Positions 21,638 through 39,041 of a stretch of 64,000 bases of DNA are shown piece after piece; position 1 is the first letter of the stretch; the number at the start of each line of letters is the position of its first letter. The stretch covers positions 103,457-167,456 of the forward strand of contig NW_026252143.1 of assembly GCF_025399195.1 (NCBI RefSeq), read 5' to 3'. The position numbers and the translations under genes were made by a program. The stretch comes from Umbelopsis ramanniana AG. Its lineage: Eukaryota; Mucoromycota; Umbelopsidomycetes; Umbelopsidales; Umbelopsidaceae. The notes below the pieces were generated by a model. It saw only the letters and a program-made list of their open reading frames with translations. It ran no database searches and had not been told where the DNA came from.

Positions 21638-23309
21638 CTAAGCAAGAACCTTTGCACGCTTTGATGAGCTTCGCACGTTGCGCCTGCGCTTATTTTTACG
21701 TGCTGTATCATCAGTGTCGTTTAGGTTGTAGCCACCTAGTGAAGATGAGGAAGGTGGAGTGACAAGTTGATCTTTCATGCTAACTGGTATGAAAGCAGAG
21801 TCCTTTAAGCCAACCATCTGGGCGCCTACAATCTTTGAACCAAGGACTTGCATATCAACTTGCAAGTACTGTTGTGGTTCACAAGACTCGTGACTAGGTA
21901 CTAAAGGTGACAAGAGTGAAACACGTGGCGATACTGAATTGGCCTGCTTGTTGTGCTCATCCGATAATCGAACAACTTGTGAGAGGTGGTTGGCATAAAG
22001 GTATAGAGAAGGTGTATCAGCCATGATGACGGGTTGGCCTGTTTGGTATTGAACAAGCCCAGTGCTAGAAGCAGTGTCACTCGTACGCTTATCGGCCTCT
22101 GCCTCCGTTTTCAAACTTTCTTGGATCCACAACTGCAAATCATAAGGCTTGATGGATTCTACCACCATGAGCTCGGTTGACTGGGCTGGTGATGATGCAG
22201 TGGGTGATCCACCATCCAACAGCTTGTGTTGCTTCGGTTCGAAAGAGTAAAAGCTGGATGGACCAATGAGGTGTTGTTTCGCTGCGCCTCCTACTGTCAG
22301 CCGGTTCACGCTGCCGTTCGGTAGACTAAATAAAGCAAATGAAAAGAGCATAATCTATTTGGGCAGTAATATTTAGCAAGCAGTGTATTTGCACCATTCA
22401 ATTATTTCTCTTAGCACTCACCATGAACACCATGCCAGTTGCCTTTGAGCCTTTTGGAGTAGCTTTCGATGAACCATACGTTGCCTTTAGTTCTTCGTTT
22501 TCGCTCTTGACCATTTGAAGCTCACCAGTGAGTTTTGCAACTTGGTCCTTTAGTGTATCATTTTCCTCTTTGAGAATGATATTTTCCTCTTCAAGTGAAA
22601 CTAAATGTTCACGCTTTCTCTTGCGAGACAAAAGAGCAGCAGCTCTGTTTTTGATCAAACGCTCTTGTCGCTTTGCCGCAACAGTGGCTTGTTGATTTGA
22701 GACTTGCGGGGGTTGAGGGGATGTAAGGGGCTTTTTGGATAGTAAGGGGATATGTTCTAATGGCTCCGATTTCACCTGCACAACATGTGAGGCGGAGGAG
22801 GGAGGGTTGGGTGAAGGCGCAATATTTGGCCTGACCGCGATTTCCGAAGGTCTTCGGTTCGTTGAGGGTAATAACGGTTTGAGTGTGGTATTCGCTATAG
22901 GTGGAGACGTGGATGTCTTTGCCTTCCTGCCTCGCTTTCGCTTGTTTTGCTCGCTATCTGAGGTTTGAGGTGACGAGTGTGGTGATTCTAAATCGAAAGG
23001 CATGGCATGTGGAAACACGACAGGTGGGAATGGCATATTTGCCATATTTTCATCGCCAGCTATGGGCGACATAAATTGCCAAAGGCAATCCGGTGAAAGC
23101 ATATCCATAGTAGTGGATGCGTCATACTCACTTGGCGGTGAACCCAAGTGAGCTACTGAATCAGTTGAGCTGGTTGAATATGGCGGAGACGGGGGATCGA
23201 TGAAGTCAATATTACTCCAATTCATGTTATTGCTGTTATCAACACAGTCGTTGTTAAGAAAGGAGAACAACAATTCGTCCTGATCTTGTGGTTCTGGCTT
23301 GGGCTCCAT
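21638..23309 (-). CDS. bZIP transcription factor with predicted membrane segment after the zipper (ATF6/CREB3-like layout)
   Basis: Exon 1 is 23309-22422 (296 codons) and exon 2 is 22354-21638, joined by a 67-bp GTGAGT..TAG intron, giving 534 residues. The N-terminus is acidic and Ser/Pro-rich, like an activation domain. The basic region at about 213-235 contains IKNRAAALLSRKRKREH, closest by eye to the ATF6 pattern IKNR..A..SRKKKKE. A leucine zipper follows to about residue 276. Directly across the splice junction the protein reads TGMVFMIMLFSFALFSLPNG, an uninterrupted hydrophobic stretch long enough to span a membrane. The ~225-residue C-terminal region ends in a strongly basic tail (RKNKRRRNVRSS), which fits poorly with an ER-luminal location. 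Reading through the intron adds only seven residues before a stop. Stress or UPR roles are inference. Confidence 0.85.
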
Positions 23310-26516: not shown

Positions 26517-29500
26517 TTATGCGATGGTCCAGGTGGTGCTAGAATCAACGATATTGCTGTTGGCAATCAATGTATTGTCTGCTTGCACAGCAACGTTGAG
26601 ACCATTGGCCAAATCAATGATAACAAAATTTCCGTTATATGAGAGAATTTGGAATGACTCCCAAGTAGAAGCAACATCGCGAGCGGCGGTCAAAGGATCA
26701 GCACCAGAAGTGGTTCCAGTGACAATTTCGTTAGTAGTTTGGCTACGGATGTCATAGTAAGTGGTAGTGCTGGTGCTGGTAGACAACTTCTCAAAAGTCC
26801 ACTTGGTTGCACTTGCTGCAGAAGTGGCAGTAGCAAGCAAGGTCACGTTAGCAGCAGTAGCCACAACATATTTTCCAGTCTTGACATTCTTGAGAGTGCC
26901 AGATGCGGGAACAGCAGCGCCAGTGCTGCTAGTAATCGGTACTAACTTGTACTTTCCGGCGGTGATTCCGTTAGTGGAATTAGCGTTATTTACCAAGTTG
27001 GATGAGGTAGTAGAAACGTAGTCATGATTGACAAGAGCCAGAAGTTGGTAAGATCCATCAGATTGCGTAACCCAACGGAAGGTCTCATAGGTAGAAGGAG
27101 TGGCACGAGCTGCAGCAAGAGCAGTCTGTCCATTGGGATCAGCTGTCACATATTGGTTGTTTGACTGGGCAAGAATAGATCCACCACCAGGCATAAAGGC
27201 AAGAGTGAAAGGAGCCGCAGTCAAACTAGCAGAGGCAGTAGCTGCTAGACTTCCACTTCCAGAGACTGTCACGTATTTGCCAGAGGCTACATCTTGGATG
27301 TAGTAAGAGCCCTGTGGTGTTTGGAGGTTGGTGTTGCAGATATTTGATGAAGATGAACGAGTAGCTACGAAGTAAAGCTGATTGGTTGCAGAGTTTCCAG
27401 ATCCCCAATCTGACAACTGCTGAGAGTAGTTGAATGCTTGTTGAGGGTTCACAGTTGCGTAGGCGGCGTAAATAACTGTAGTATTACGAAAATAATGGTC
27501 AACATATAGAATCGATCATTCAGTCAACGTAAACGAAACTTACCTGACTTGAAAGCGTCTCCAATAGTAGGATCGTTGAGCTCAGCTTGGCAGTAAGGAA
27601 TGACATTTTGAAGCCAGGCTTTATCATAAGTGACTTCACCGATTGGCGTGAGAGGCAACATTTGAATAGCAGCAATTTCTGTTCTTTGAGCACCCCAGAA
27701 CAGCCATGCACCAGCTTGCCAGTCCTCGACGTTACCAACGGTAATAAGGTTTCGGAATCCAGCTTCGGGATAAGGGGTATCGGTAGTGACGCTGGGATAC
27801 AAGTGCCAGTAAGTCTGAGCTCCCATTTCTTCGATAGCAAGAAGCATTCTAGCATAATCGATGAGTGCATTGTTACCAGTAACTTCAGCAAACATCAATA
27901 AACCATAGTATCCGTTAATAGCTTCTCCAGTACTCTCTTGATCACGCGATCCTGCTCCGTTGGCAATACCACTAGCCCAAGAGTGACCAGCAAACCAATC
28001 CATGTGGCGGGTGACAGTGTAATAGGGATCATTAGGTGACGGATTGCCAATATCACGAGCAATACTGAATAGAAAGTTAACATTTTTTAAGCAAATAATC
28101 GACAGGAAATATAATATTTTATCCATCACACTTACTGTGTCAAGAAATCCTTATTTTGACTTAACCAAGTGGCGTCGTACTTTCCAATGACGGAGGCACC
28201 GTAGAGGAAATATCCATAATGGAAATGATGATCGTTATAGTAAGCCTGTAGTATGCAAGTTAGAAAGATTAATTACTGCTGGCCTAGTGATTAAAAGCCA
28301 AGCGATGGCCTTCAGCTCTGATACTTACATTACCAAAGTCTACCCAGGTATTGTTCCATCCATCTTTGTTAATGACACCACCCCAGCCAGTTTCATAAGC
28401 AGCAGCGGGAGAATGAGTAGCATCCAACCAATAAGCAAAGCTTTGCTTCAAGATACCGACAACTGTGTTGACAAGGTCAGTACGACCAGTTTGCTCAGCA
28501 ATCAGGGCCAAACGAGCAGCTCTGGCGAAGGATCCTCCCCAATAGTAGAAATCTCCAGGAACCATGACTGACAGAGCTGAGACATCATATTGCAATGTTT
28601 GATTCAGCTGGGACAAGCAAGAGCTTTGAGGAGCATTTGGAGCGAACCAATAAATAGAGGGAAGTGTGTGGGTCAAAGTCCAGGTATTACCAACAACACC
28701 CTTCATATATCCTTTGGTCGTCAAGTATTGAATGCTAGCAGAGGTTGGGTTGGACAGTACTTTTCTATAATCCGCAGCAGTTAGTTCATTTCTATGTCCA
28801 TGTCCACAACCTGCATTAGGAAACATTACCTGTGATGTGGCCAGCTCAATGTAAGAAGGGAAGAAGAATTTCCAGCTGTGCTCCATTTCCAAGTCTGCGT
28901 GCTAGTGTTGCCACTAACGGCATACGACATGGTAAGACCAGTTGGGTAGGCGCCAACATATTTATCTAAAATGGCTTCTTGCGATGTTTCATTGAGGAGA
29001 GCCATTCTGATAGTTCCAGTATAGCCAGACTGGGATTGGAGAGTGTTTGCATTTGTAGTCAAGGTAAGAGAAGTATCCAGAGCGTAAAGAAGATAAGTGC
29101 CAGCACTGTTGGTGATTTTTGCCTTTTTGCCTATGATAAATTGATGATGTTAAGACCGTGGGCAAAAATTACATTATCCACTCATTACCATTTCATCGTA
29201 ATTGTATCTTACCAGCAGTTACCCATGTAAGAGTTCCTAAATTTCCATTCATAGAATTGATGTTGACAACTGCATTCTTGAATGTAAATGTCATGTAAGG
29301 AGATCCAGGAACCATACAGGACGACATAGTGGAGCCACTATCGGTGAAGTATTGAAGACACACAGTCTGTGTATCCCATGAGGTAGCTTTACGATGCTGA
29401 AGGTCATTGGGGAGACCAGACATTCCTACACTCCAATCAGTCTGTGTAGGTTGATGAATGGAAGTTCCATCAAAATCTCTCTTGTTTGAGATACCAAAAA

Positions 29501-33310: not shown

Positions 33311-33968
33311 ATCATTGTGGTATCTCAAACCTATATTCAAAGCGCGTCTTAGAAGCTTCTGAGTGGTATTTCTTTAAAAGGGGTATTCTAAGAAGACACT
33401 GTGTGCAACGGTATTGAAGGAAATTGGGAAAACATGATGGGACGGTACATATCCACGGGTAGGGAAGTATTGTCGGCTGGTAATCCGACGAAGAAATTAA
33501 GGCGGACTTCCATTTTTGGAATACCTCAGTTTAATTACCTTGAATCTCTGCTCATTTGGCATTATTTTTTTCTACGAGTTTATACAGAGTCATAATTGGT
33601 CTATTTTAGCTCTAGATTAAGAAGGGATTTAATATATGATGACATCCTTGCATTTAGGGCGAACACTACCTATATTACAAACGAAATTAGCTGCTGGCAT
33701 ATATATCCAAGAAGCGGATTGAACAATATGGCTGTATGCAACTGTTGCAACAAGTTTCAGTGACCGGCAGTTTAGTCAGTGGGGGAATCGCTTTTGTGCA
33801 AGGTGCAACATAAGCAGCTGGAAAATGAAGTGGGACCAGCGGCACCAATTCCCAGACACAGTGGATCCTCAAATTTTTATTTACCGCTTAATAGCCACAG
33901 CGAATGTCGAGTTATAAAAAGATGGCTGATCGGCCGTACCTGAAACAAAGTAAAAGTTTCTTTTCATT
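33311..33968. other. Intergenic, promoter side of the GH55 gene
   Basis: About 650 bp between the GH81 relic and the GH55 start. The frame 33401-33595 has no recognisable domain. A TATA box lies at 33913-33920. Confidence 0.55.
33913..33920 (+). promoter_or_regulatory. TATA box of the GH55 gene
   Basis: TATAAAAA begins 56 nt upstream of the ATG at 33969. This is exactly the spacing seen at the GH81 gene. Confidence 0.6.
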
Positions 33969-36488
33969 ATGGTTGGAACATATTGGTTGAGTGCTCTCGT
34001 CCCAATTCTGTTGGCTCCCTGTATTGCAGCTGCACCAGCACCCGACGCGGCATCCAAAAAGAGTCCAGGAAAATGTACAAAGCTTACTCCCACCGTCCAC
34101 TCTGGGGATATGTGGATTGGCAGCATTGCTCATAATGGAACGTCCCCCTTCAATACCGATTCCTCATATACCGTCTATCGCAATGTTATGGACTTTGGTT
34201 GCAAAGGTGATGGCGTAACGGATGACACTGCTTGTATCAACAAAGCCATTTCAACCGGCAGCCGGTGTGGGTCCAGCTGTGGTACCTCTACCACTGCTCC
34301 TGCTCTCGTCTACTTTCCTTCGGGAAAGTATCTTGTTTCAACACCCATCGTGATGTACTACTACACACAGTTGGTGGGAAATGCATTGAATCCCCCCACG
34401 CTCTTGATGGCTCCCTCCTTCCAAGGCATTGGACTCATTGACTCAGATCCTTACGGGGCTGGAGGCGTACAATGGTATCAGAACCAGAACAACTTTTTCC
34501 GACAAGTCAGAAACTTTGTCTTCGATCTTACCCAGACTCCTGCAACCTCATCATCTACCGGTATTCACTGGCAGGTGGCTCAAGCTACTTCTTTGACCAA
34601 CTTGGTCTTCAAGATGTCCAAAGCCACAAACACCAATCATCAAGGTGTCTGGATGGAGAATGGTTCAGGTGGTTTCATGTCTGACCTTGTGTTTGATGGT
34701 GGAAAGTTCGGTCTTTGGGTTGGTAACCAGCAGTTCACGTCGAGAAATCTTACCATTAGCAATGCTCAAACCGCCATTTATATGAACTGGAACTGGGCTT
34801 GGACCTTTAAGACTTTGAACATCAACAACTGCAATGTCGGTATTGACATGACTGCAGGTGGTCCCACTTCTCAAGGTGTTGGCAGTATCACTGTCGTGGA
34901 TGCTAAAATCAGCAATACCCCAACAGGTGTTCTTTCTGATACCTCTTCCACTTCTCAGACCAAGGCATCTGGATCTTTGATTTTGGATAATGTTGTTTTG
35001 GATAATGTACACACTGCTGTTGGAAATGGTACTATGACCAGCTTGGCCGGAACTTCAGGCACCATGACCATTACTTCATGGGGTCAAGGCTCTCTCTACA
35101 CAAACACTAGCGGCTCCGGAACCTTCAACCAAAAGACCCTCCCAGTTCTCCCCAAGAAAAGTGCTAGTCTCTTGGCTTCAGATGGAAGATTCTTTGAACG
35201 CCCTAGGCCACAATATGAACAATATGCTGCTAGCGACTTCGTTTCTGTTAAGGGTAAGAAATGTGAAACCTTGGATTCATGACTTAGCCAATGTATCTCA
35301 ACTAACCAAATTTTCGATTGTTGCAGCTTCTGGTGCCCGGGGTGATGGTAAAACCGATGATACTGCCGTTATTCAAAAAGTTTTAACAGAATCCGCTGGC
35401 TGCAAGATCGTCTATTTCCCTGCCGGTGTGTACATTATCAGCAAGACTGTTAATGTTCCCGCAGGAACAAGAATTGTTGGTGAAGCCTGGTCGGTCTTGA
35501 TGGCCAATGGAGCTGCTTTCTCCTCAGAAATGAAGCCCACACCTATGCTCAAGGTTGGAAATACTGGTGATAAAGGAGTTGCTGAAATCTCCGACATTAT
35601 CTTTGCCACCAAAGGTGCTCAACCTGGTGCTATTCTTGTTCAATGGAATATCCGCGATCCTGCCGGTCAACCTGGTTCAACTGGAATGTGGGATACACAT
35701 TTCCGCATTGGAGGTACTGCTGGAACAGAGCTTCAAGCTGCACAATGCCCAGCCGGAGAAAGTGAAAAGGACGCTTGCAAGGCTGCCTACATGTTACTTC
35801 AATTGACAAAGTCATCCTCCGCTTATCTTGAGAATGTTTGGGCCTGGACCGCTGATCATGACCTTGATGGTGGCCCTCAAGTGAGTATCTACACTGGACG
35901 TGGTATCTCTGTAGAGTCTACTAAAGGCCCCGTTTGGATGTATGGTACCGCTTCAGAACACAACGTAAGATCTATTGAATAAGCTATATCTATGAAATTG
36001 ATGTGAACTGTGAGCTAACTTCCTTACTACAGGTGCTATACCAATACCAAATCGCTAATGCAAAGAATGTGTTGATGGCCATGATCCAAACTGAGACTCC
36101 TTACTATCAACCTGGACCTAAGGCACCTCAACCTTACACTCCATCTAAGTCATACAATGATCCTACATTCTCCAACTGTGCTGCTGGTTCAGACAATTGT
36201 GCCTTGGCCTGGGGTCTCCGAATAATCAAATCGTCCGATGTGTATGTGTATGGAACTGGTTTGTACAACTTTTACAGCAACTACAGTCAAACTTGCCTTG
36301 ATACCGAGGACTGCCAAGATGCTATGGTTGACTTGGAATCCAATAAGAATGTCTATCTCTACAACTTGAACACCAAGGCAGCAACCAATATGGTAACTAG
36401 CGGTGGAAAATCCTTGGCTAAGCAAGCCGACAATACCAACAATTTCTGCCAAACTGTCAACGCTTTCCTGGTCGAGGCTAAGGCGTAA
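33969..36488 (+). CDS. Secreted GH55 exo-beta-1,3-glucanase
   Basis: GH55 enzymes release glucose or short oligomers from beta-1,3-glucan ends using a double right-handed beta-helix. Exons 33969-35253, 35327-35964 and 36033-36488 give 792 residues, close to the family's usual 750-800. The signal peptide is YWLSALVPILLAPCIAAAPA. Each half starts with the pectate-lyase-like signature: VMDFGCKGDGVTDDTACINK near residue 75 and GARGDGKTDDTAVIQKVL near residue 432. Other family blocks are HQGVWMENGSGGFMSDLVF, YLENVWAWTADHDLDGG and TGRGISVESTKGPVWMYGT. It lies next to GH81, so endo- and exo-acting glucanases are neighbours. Several N-glycosylation sequons fit secretion. Confidence 0.95.
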
Positions 36489-36724: not shown

Positions 36725-39041
36725 ATGAGTAAGTGAACCATTGCATTAGTTGAACGTCATGCAACGACATTAAAGTATTGGCTTTCAAGCTTCTTTGATA
36801 AGGGTTGGAATTCTTACTGTAAGCGACACATCGTCAAATAAGCCGAAAGCTGATCGAAGTGGCCCTCTTTTACGCGATACCCTTACTGCGGTGGGCTGGA
36901 ATGTCGTTGACACGGCAATAACTTCAGACGATCCGAAAGAAATATCCAAAGCTCTTCTGAAGTGGACAGATATAGAAGAGTTAGATGTAATTGTTACTAC
37001 GGGTGGAACTGGTTTTGGTGTTCGGGACAATACACCTGAGGTATGCAGATCTTTCAGAACGCTGTTACCTTAATGATCTGACTGACAGTTTGCGTGAAGG
37101 TGGTGAAATCGTTGTTAGATAAAGATGCGCCTGGAATCACTCATCTTCTGATGTCAACGTCGCTGAAATACACCCCTTTTGCAGCACTGAGCCGCCCTGT
37201 GTGTGGAGTTAGAGGAAAATCAATCATTTTGACGTTGCCCGGCAGTCCAAAGGCATGCAAAGAGAACATTGAATGTGTGCTTGATATTCTTCCTCATGCT
37301 GTGGAATTGACGAGAGGAGGATCCGGTTCCGGCCTTCACAATAAGATGCTGCAATCTCCGGAAGACGATAGCAAGTCGCACCACCACCATCACCACCATC
37401 ATCATCCTAAACCACACACATGTACTCATAAGAGCGACGAAGTGGCGAGAGATAACACTACTGGAAACCTTTCCAATCCACTAAATGCTCCAGGTACGTA
37501 TTTTTCAATTGTCACTTATTTTGAAAAATTGTCTTCTAATATTTTTTACAGTGACACGAAGACATCGTCAATCCCCATACCCAATGATAACGGTGGAAGA
37601 AGGAAACGCGTTGATCCAAAAATATACGCAGCCACTAGAAACGGAGATAAAGGAAGTGGACGATAAATTGATAGGATATGTGATCGCGGAAAAAGTGACT
37701 GCTCGTGAACCTGTGCCTGGCTATAGAGCATCTATTGTCGACGGATATGCGGTCAAAGGTACTAGAGGCCAATGGTGAAGAGTTTCGCTGTCCGCAAGCA
37801 TGCTAAATTGTACTAACTGATCTCTAGCGCAAGACGGACCTGGCTCCTATCCTGTGGTGACATCCTCTGTTGCTGGTAGCAGCGATGTATTCACACTCCA
37901 AAGTGGACAGATATCAAGAATTACAACTGGAGGAATGATACCTGACGGTGCCGATGCTATTGTCATGGTAGAGGATACGGAGTTACAGGAAACATCAGAT
38001 GACGGAAAACAAGAAAAGGTGGTGAAAATTTTGGCCCAAGTACAAGTAGGCGAAAATGTTCGAGAAATCGGGTGCGATACACCTATTGGGCATACAATAG
38101 CCCAAGAAGGCGACATTATCACTTCAGTGGGAGGCGAAATTGGTGTTCTATCTTCTGTAGGAATACGCTCCATTTCGGTGTATCGCAAGCCAAGAGTCGG
38201 TGTTTTGTCAACAGGTAACGAGGTCGTCGACCACACAAACACTGTGAATCTAAGACCGGGCCAAATACGTGACAGCAATCGACCAACTTTACTGGCGGCG
38301 ATTAGCGCCGCAGGGTTCGAAGCCATTGACCTCGGCATAGTGGGCGATCACATTGATGATCTAGAACAGAAATTAAAGTTGAGCTTAGATGAAGTTGATG
38401 TACTGATCACCACAGGCGGCGTTTCCATGGGCGAAATGGATCTTCTTAAGCCGATTTTGGAGCAAAAAATGGGAGCCACTATACACTTCGGTCGCGTGCG
38501 CATGAAGCCTGGGTAAGTTGCTGACTGATCTCATTACCACTACCCACGATAGAAATTCACACAACGCATTTGAGACTAGGAAGCCTACTACATTTGCCAC
38601 GGTTAATTCCAAATTGGTTTTCGCGCTGCCCGGTAACCCTGTGTCTGCCAATGTAACTTTTTACCTATTTGTCATGCCTGCTCTACGTAAGATGGCGGGT
38701 ATGCCGAATTTTCAGCTTCCAGTGATGCAAGTCAAGGTAAATAATGAGCATACGTTGACGTACACTGATACACCCCATTCTCACACCATCTTCAAAAGTT
38801 GTCACATTCTATCAAATTGGACTCAAGACCAGAATACCACCGTGCCATTGGAAAAGTGCAACCAAACCAGAGTCACATCACTGTGACTTCAACCGGCGTT
38901 CAACAAAGCTCAAGGATTTTAAGTATGGTTGGGGCCAACTGTCTCTTGAAACTACCAGCAAGCACTACCGAACAGAGGCAATTGGAGGCGGGAACATTTT
39001 TAAATGCTATTATAATTGGACCTCCCGTATTCAACGTGTAA
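36725..39041 (+). CDS. Gephyrin-like bifunctional molybdenum cofactor enzyme (MogA-MoeA fusion)
   Basis: The MogA-like domain adenylylates molybdopterin and the MoeA-like domain inserts molybdate, giving Moco for nitrate reductase and sulfite oxidase type enzymes. Exons 36725-36728, 36790-37040, 37100-37493, 37552-37758, 37828-38512, 38580-38736 and 38799-39041 total 1941 nt, 646 residues. MogA motifs: [33 protein letters not shown], and [21 protein letters not shown] linker with nine consecutive histidines follows, then the MoeA domain: [62 protein letters not shown] and [20 protein letters not shown]. No ATG opens the long second exon. An upstream ATG-A with a perfect gtaagt donor gives an MTSLIRVG start in frame. 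Domain order is gephyrin-like (G then E). Confidence 0.94.
37379..37405 (+). repeat. CAC/CAT tract coding nine histidines in the gephyrin-like linker
   Basis: Nine consecutive His codons (a CAC/CAT mixture), followed by PKPHTCTHK. The mixed codon use indicates the tract is not a fresh slippage product of one codon. Confidence 0.9.

Follow-up and report, generated by a model that had tools for sequence, protein, structure and literature searches.

Animal ATF6 has a bZIP domain followed by a linker, a hydrophobic segment and, on the lumenal side, the motif P.(M/L)S..P...Q(I/V)D.QV, and elements resembling these are seen in the gene of the soil fungus Umbelopsis described here. Members of the animal CREB3/OASIS family also carry a membrane segment after the bZIP domain, and are likened to the Umbelopsis protein by this layout and not by sequence. 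The ATF6 and PERK branches of stress signaling have been described for Metazoa (PMC10512342), and Ire1 is the only branch in S. cerevisiae (PMC10781871). A survey of bZIP factors inferred an ATF6-type family in the animal-fungus (opisthokont) ancestor and grouped ATF6/OASIS with fungal HAC1, and its available passages make no mention of a fungal factor with such an anchor (PMC4736632). A candidate fungal family does appear in a 2026 survey of membrane-bound regulators, but with a MYRF-type DNA-binding domain (PMC13294678). In a literature search covering few subscription journals, no description was found of a fungal factor with both an anchor and an ATF6-like lumenal motif. Two further groups of systems are relevant for comparison. 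In the first, the output of a stress bZIP factor is set by RNA splicing via IRE1, as in bZIP60 of plants, HAC1 of fungi and XBP1 of animals (PMC9237531). Splicing is able to remove an anchor in plant bZIP60 and also in the Arabidopsis NAC factor NTL5, of which one accession, through a single-nucleotide difference, retains an intron before the anchor and makes a protein that is permanently nuclear (PMC9237531). The second is represented by Sre1 (SREBP), a fungal membrane-bound factor processed in Cryptococcus and Phaffia by the S2P homolog Stp1, the loss of which in one Phaffia mutant background leads to higher DTT sensitivity (PMC12732919).

The Umbelopsis gene lies on the minus strand of the window, the whole 64,000-nt stretch of DNA that was analysed (Table 1). 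Its two exons join into a 534-aa bZIP protein. Exon 1 contains a conserved N-terminal motif, the bZIP domain and the first part of a hydrophobic segment, ending in GGCATGGTGTTCATG, while exon 2, which is the second match in a protein search of the fungus's own genome, codes for the rest of the segment and the presumed lumenal part. The only Pfam matches over the curated cut-offs are bZIP models (PF00170, 40 bits; PF07716, 32 bits), and in the AlphaFold model of P0001, a 94%-identical relative, the bZIP helix has a pLDDT of about 97. An earlier, sequence-only reading of this DNA had placed the exons, the ends of the intron and the product of its retention, and all of these were confirmed on retranslation. 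Retention of the intron adds VSAKRNN and stops the protein at 303 residues with loss of the hydrophobic segment. The intron indeed cuts this segment, which is formed only by splicing: averaged over 19 residues, Kyte-Doolittle hydropathy beyond the zipper peaks at 1.91 for the spliced product, 0.13 for the retained one and 0.62 for the product of the next AG.

Table 1. Features of the ATF6-like gene in the window
Feature	Position	Strand	Details
Exon 1 (CDS)	23309-22422	-	888 nt, 296 codons, residues 1-296 (translation)
bZIP domain	22679-22494	-	residues 211-272 (Pfam)
Hydrophobic segment, exon-1 part	22442-22422	-	ATGMVFM (hydropathy)
Intron	22421-22355	-	67 bp, phase 0, GT-AG, GTGAGT...AAATAG
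TGA stop with intron retained	22400-22398	-	303-aa product (translation)
Exon 2 (CDS with stop)	22354-21638	-	residues 297-534; opens ATTATGCTCTTTTCA
Hydrophobic segment, exon-2 part	22354-22319	-	IMLFSFALFSLP; hydropathy 1.91 only when joined
Next AG acceptor	22327-22326	-	29 nt downstream; tract 72% pyrimidine vs 50% for called acceptor
Lumenal motif	21934-21818	-	PRVSLLSP...YLQVDMQVLGSKIV; resembles ATF6 PKMSIVLPAIN...MMQIDCQVMDTRIL

The splice is supported by the full-length protein P0001 of Umbelopsis sp. AD052, which has the same joined segment, and by a U. isabellina protein, 65% identical, in which the segment is joined too. Among the matches listed, the nearest proteins are those of Umbelopsis (Mucoromycota, Umbelopsidales); the listings cover the best 120 of 197 and the best 120 of 247 matches, and counts below are given over 137 listed relatives. 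Three of them offer a further view of the spliced form. In P0005, from an Umbelopsis-like source, the frame runs unbroken through the junction (362 aa in a contig of 1,822 bases), while the spliced form of P0026, a frame of 557 aa, occupies almost all of a 1,791-base contig, as does that of P0045, with 604 aa, in a contig of 1,942 bases. These short contigs look like cDNA, and the jgi, ena and lgn entries in general are taken to be genomic or cDNA contigs.

Similarity to ATF6 is found on both sides of the hydrophobic segment. In BLASTP, P0001 matches gorilla ATF6 (E 3e-13, 33% over 151 aa) along the bZIP, the linker and most of the segment, and the family profile matches the bZIP of ATF6 with a P of 1.9e-14. 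When bZIP scores were compared over 25 targets (one ATF6 and 24 own-genome loci, the last few without a true bZIP, with one further locus unscored and CREB3 absent), ATF6 came first with 64.6 and the own-genome HAC1-like protein second with 59.8, all others scoring at most 47.6. On the lumenal side, a profile-profile comparison of 83 fungal with 46 mammalian ATF6 sequences gave a score of 27.8 (P 0.0034), which none of 200 column shuffles reached (maximum 18.4) and to which the reversed alignment, at 13.4, did not come close; however, because the match covers only 45 columns and has an hhalign probability of 9.5, this likeness is suggestive and not final. In both predicted models the shared motif forms a helix and then two strands, with a mean pLDDT of only 56 in the fungal protein and 35 in ATF6, and the ATF6 model has, at very low confidence, further elements besides the two strands. 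A search of the PDB for the predicted fold gave 0 matches at E <= 0.001. Two sources name relatives, P0063 and P0125, after ATF6. The ATF6-like layout that had been proposed from the sequence is thus borne out, with a suggestive similarity that extends into the lumenal part, and the gene is best read as coding for an ATF6-type membrane bZIP factor. It differs from ATF6 in being fungal, in its shorter lumenal part and in the RxxL of a site-1 protease site, which is not conserved close to the segment: 32 of 86 proteins of the family fit a loose pattern, and the sole RxxL in the C part of the window protein is RVSL, within the lumenal motif.

The joined segment, ATGMVFM followed by IMLFSFALFSLP, is the sole strongly hydrophobic stretch of the protein and has its highest hydropathy. 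It is kept as protein in 88 of the 137 listed relatives under a strict pattern, and the named relatives that have it, among the matches listed, belong to Mucoromycota, Mortierellomycota, Basidiobolus (Basidiobolomycota) and Coemansia (Kickxellomycota). Its conservation goes beyond chance, since F298, S299, F300 and F303 (P0001 numbering) are invariant in an alignment of 52 proteins that were picked by hand without use of the FSFA pattern. A set of 86 'canonical' proteins was chosen by a pattern demanding FSFA, and per-position counts in it are partly by construction. Within 15 residues of the segment, 66 of these 86 proteins have more K+R on the N side than on the C side, and 18 have the same number on both, a charge bias that would fit a cytosolic N side. 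N-glycosylation sequons are slightly enriched in the C-terminal part (223 vs 193 expected) and number 226 vs 272 expected on the N side. In the AlphaFold model of P0001 the segment is a separate helix, with a pLDDT of 79 for residues 291-300 and 56 for residues 301-310. A rough estimate of insertion energy is favourable for a 16-residue core (-1.6) and unfavourable for the 19-mer (+3.2), the ATF6 segment being at +1.5. Because this estimate favours the one and disfavours the other, a membrane anchor is put forward as likely rather than as shown. The presumed lumenal C-terminus (21638-21730, minus strand) is strongly basic, with K+R averaging 6.5 over the final 30 residues in the 86 proteins, which is odd for a lumenal end. 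A group of paralogs in Mucor and its kin (P0059, P0063, P0067, P0080, P0114, P0116 and P0124-P0128) has a bZIP with a hydrophobic segment of altered sequence and a shorter C-terminal part.

The intron occupies the same codon in relatives from Umbelopsidales and Mucorales. In 30 of the 137 listed relatives the frame enters the intron immediately behind the Met that closes the first half of the segment, giving V and then unrelated residues; by exon 1, their nearest relatives are Umbelopsis, Backusella, Phycomyces, Absidia, Thamnidium, Mucor and others. These 30 were found by patterns demanding V after M, so that the V is by construction, and the residue that follows is compatible with A in 29 of them (S, R, N, I, M or K), with one D. 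Gene models and frames that enter the intron, rather than the DNA itself, give its position in relatives, as no relative's DNA was found in a search of genome and viral contig collections. Exon 1 is unbroken from Met, N-terminal motif included, in 27 of the 30 (23 of 25 once annotated NCBI models are set aside), and therefore this is the first coding intron in those relatives. The tails added by the intron are 2 to 106 aa long in 29 of the 30, with at most 25 residues in 26 of these; the remaining one, the NCBI model P0030 of Absidia glauca, reads seven residues and then continues with family sequence from the usual acceptor. The diverged Mucor paralog is seen both ways, spliced in P0125 and unspliced in P0132, with exons 1 that are 99.7% identical, and the two look like one gene. 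Unspliced relatives of this paralog group (P0120, P0132 and P0133) have the intron at the same place. The Mortierella model P0123 lacks three residues before the junction and resumes at the same acceptor, which suggests that Mortierella shares the intron position. NCBI models that end at the stop of the retained intron are those of Phycomyces nitens (P0064), Chlamydoabsidia padenii (P0091) and Lichtheimia (P0103 and P0109). In animals, a comparison of 119 mammalian ATF6 proteins with a reference found recurrent gaps or inserts at residue 395 (15 sequences), that is, after the segment and not inside it as in the fungi; another four models each have a different gap nearby, and one of these gaps deletes residues 375-385, the start of the segment. 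An intron position common with animals was rejected, as none of the 119 proteins has a gap at the fungal site. The best explanation, and on the whole a probable one, is that the intron is an old, ordinary, spliceosomal intron that lies in the codons of the anchor by happenstance.

Whether the hydrophobic segment is an anchor at all has to be weighed first. It might be conserved because it forms a buried helix or serves as a degron or binding motif in a factor that is soluble and nuclear, and this would fit the short core, whose residues F, S, F and F do not vary across 52 proteins, which is stricter than an anchor requires, as well as the unfavourable estimate for the 19-mer and the basic C-terminal tail. 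However, a mean hydropathy that is the top of the whole protein, the same position as the ATF6 segment, the prediction of a separate helix (pLDDT 79 and 56) and the hydrophobic stretch that diverged Mucor paralogs retain despite other sequence make such a role rather improbable. A far slighter chance, close to negligible, is given to the idea that the called acceptor is wrong and that the hydrophobic stretch is merely the pyrimidine tract of an intron ending at the next AG, whose tract is richer in pyrimidines (Table 1). The product of this AG would be a 357-aa protein in another frame and devoid of the segment, whereas the segment is present as protein in 88 of the 137 listed relatives and the downstream frame is conserved; moreover, the AG derives from a Ser codon at a place where 64 of 86 relatives have T or N. 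The called acceptor thus stands against the downstream one, which the sequence-only reading had itself raised as the case that would undo it, since the family keeps both segment and frame.

With the segment read as a likely anchor and the acceptor as called, the question is whether splicing controls anchoring. As in bZIP60, which loses its anchor by IRE1 cutting (PMC9237531), the gene could be a target of IRE1, of the HAC1/XBP1/bZIP60 type, and exons for the IRE1 RNase are present in its genome. Yet the intron has ordinary GT-AG sites and no IRE1-type hairpin, as had been noted from the sequence: 0 were found in the spliced and unspliced sequence of the ATF6-like gene (mean 0.175 per mononucleotide shuffle), and it is retention, not removal, that would cost this protein its anchor. 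A HAC1/XBP1-like bZIP gene, L032 (RNRAAAQDSRDRKR; own genome C13:280000-282800, minus strand), has a CTGCAGC loop on a 5-bp stem downstream. The hairpin pattern matches twice in this control, one match being the classic CTGCAGC downstream of the bZIP, and the two do not form a pair. L032 is probably the usual IRE1 target of the fungus, which leaves the earlier comparison of the ATF6-like gene with HAC1/XBP1 only loosely valid, and direct IRE1 cutting of this gene is hardly credible. The other possibility, put forward in the sequence-only reading, is regulated intron retention, by which a 303-aa nuclear bZIP near to the proteolytic fragment would be made and splicing would switch between anchored and free forms. 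In SREBP, the S2P cut lies a few residues inside the membrane segment. The intron is located at about this depth, and therefore the retained-intron protein would resemble a released fragment, which makes the switch attractive. The intron is also read into at the same codon in 30 of 137 listed relatives and is the first coding intron in 27 of these, four NCBI models (P0064, P0091, P0103 and P0109) stop inside it, a site-1 protease was not found in genome searches, and plants offer a precedent in NTL5 (PMC9237531), which is alike in the retention of an intron before the anchor, a form that in the Umbelopsis gene is only predicted. These points are met by others. The retained tails share no sequence in 29 of the 30 relatives (P0030 reads through), 3 of the 30 have a hydrophobic stretch of their own (19-residue mean >=1.6), and an in-frame stop in the intron is no more than chance, because the probability of a stop within 22 codons is 0.84 at this base composition. 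In addition, the donor is the consensus, the RNA structure around the intron is ordinary (z 0.41), the common intron position is explicable by plain inheritance, and the four truncated NCBI models may be annotation errors, P0091 looking like a paralog of P0024 from the same species. The sequences give no hint that selection maintains the retained product, though it may still be used, and the literature search found no mention of intron retention in Umbelopsis or related genera. The switch is therefore unsupported and seems rather improbable, despite its likeness to release by proteolysis. A wider version, with slightly slimmer prospects still, would give zygomycete-type fungi an ATF6-type sensor with two routes to a near-identical nuclear fragment, a cut in the membrane and stress-regulated retention of an old intron lying roughly at the place of that cut, in which splicing could replace a missing site-1 protease. 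With its intron inside the anchor, the gene allows the splicing idea to be put to the test within a single species.

Routine splicing, ER anchoring via the segment and proteolytic activation of an ATF6-type bZIP factor form the reading that we favour with reasonable confidence. The 67-bp intron would normally be removed, so that a single hydrophobic segment just behind the zipper would hold the main product in the ER membrane, its bZIP side facing the cytosol and a small conserved domain projecting into the lumen. Upon ER (or other lumenal) stress, a cut in the membrane would free the N-terminal part, which would then act in the nucleus. The cutting protease would probably be the S2P-like protease of the own genome. 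The gene for an S2P-like M50 protease, L055 (C40:34500-39500), has its HEAGH and LDG motifs on separate exons; the first exon is over the Pfam cut-off and the second below, and L055 is the sole M50 match found in the genome. The first exon gave no match by sequence to PDB chains. In a difference from ATF6, a site-1 protease was not found in the Umbelopsis genome: a search without positive control gave no match to the S1P-specific Pfam domain, and an intron-blind query with an S1P sequence brought up nothing beyond weak subtilase-like matches (best E 8e-5). A route free of S1P is nevertheless not far-fetched, because Stp1 processes fungal Sre1 (PMC12732919) and processing in fungi takes other routes than the S1P/S2P pair of mammals (PMC13026331). 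Like the factor proposed here, Sre1 is bound to a membrane and is processed in fungi by a site-2 protease (PMC12732919), but it is a bHLH factor and has sterols as its input. If true, a fungal factor in which the anchor and an ATF6-like lumenal motif are both kept would be new; the anchored form would then predate the animal-fungus split and fungal S2P would gain a second substrate to test. This fungal ATF6-like factor is a more interesting result than the splicing switch.

Elsewhere, Rfam and tRNA scans of the 64,000-nt window were empty, and so was a scan for bacterial promoters and terminators, the models of which are not meaningful for a fungus. The protein encoded at 33954-35279 (plus strand) has a pectate-lyase-like domain of the rhamnogalacturonase/epimerase type (PF12708, E 1.9e-88), molybdopterin biosynthesis domains (MoeA_N and MoCF_biosynth) are found at 37821-38513 (plus strand), and a frame at 26520-27515 (minus strand) matches fascin-like and ricin-B-like beta-trefoil domains.
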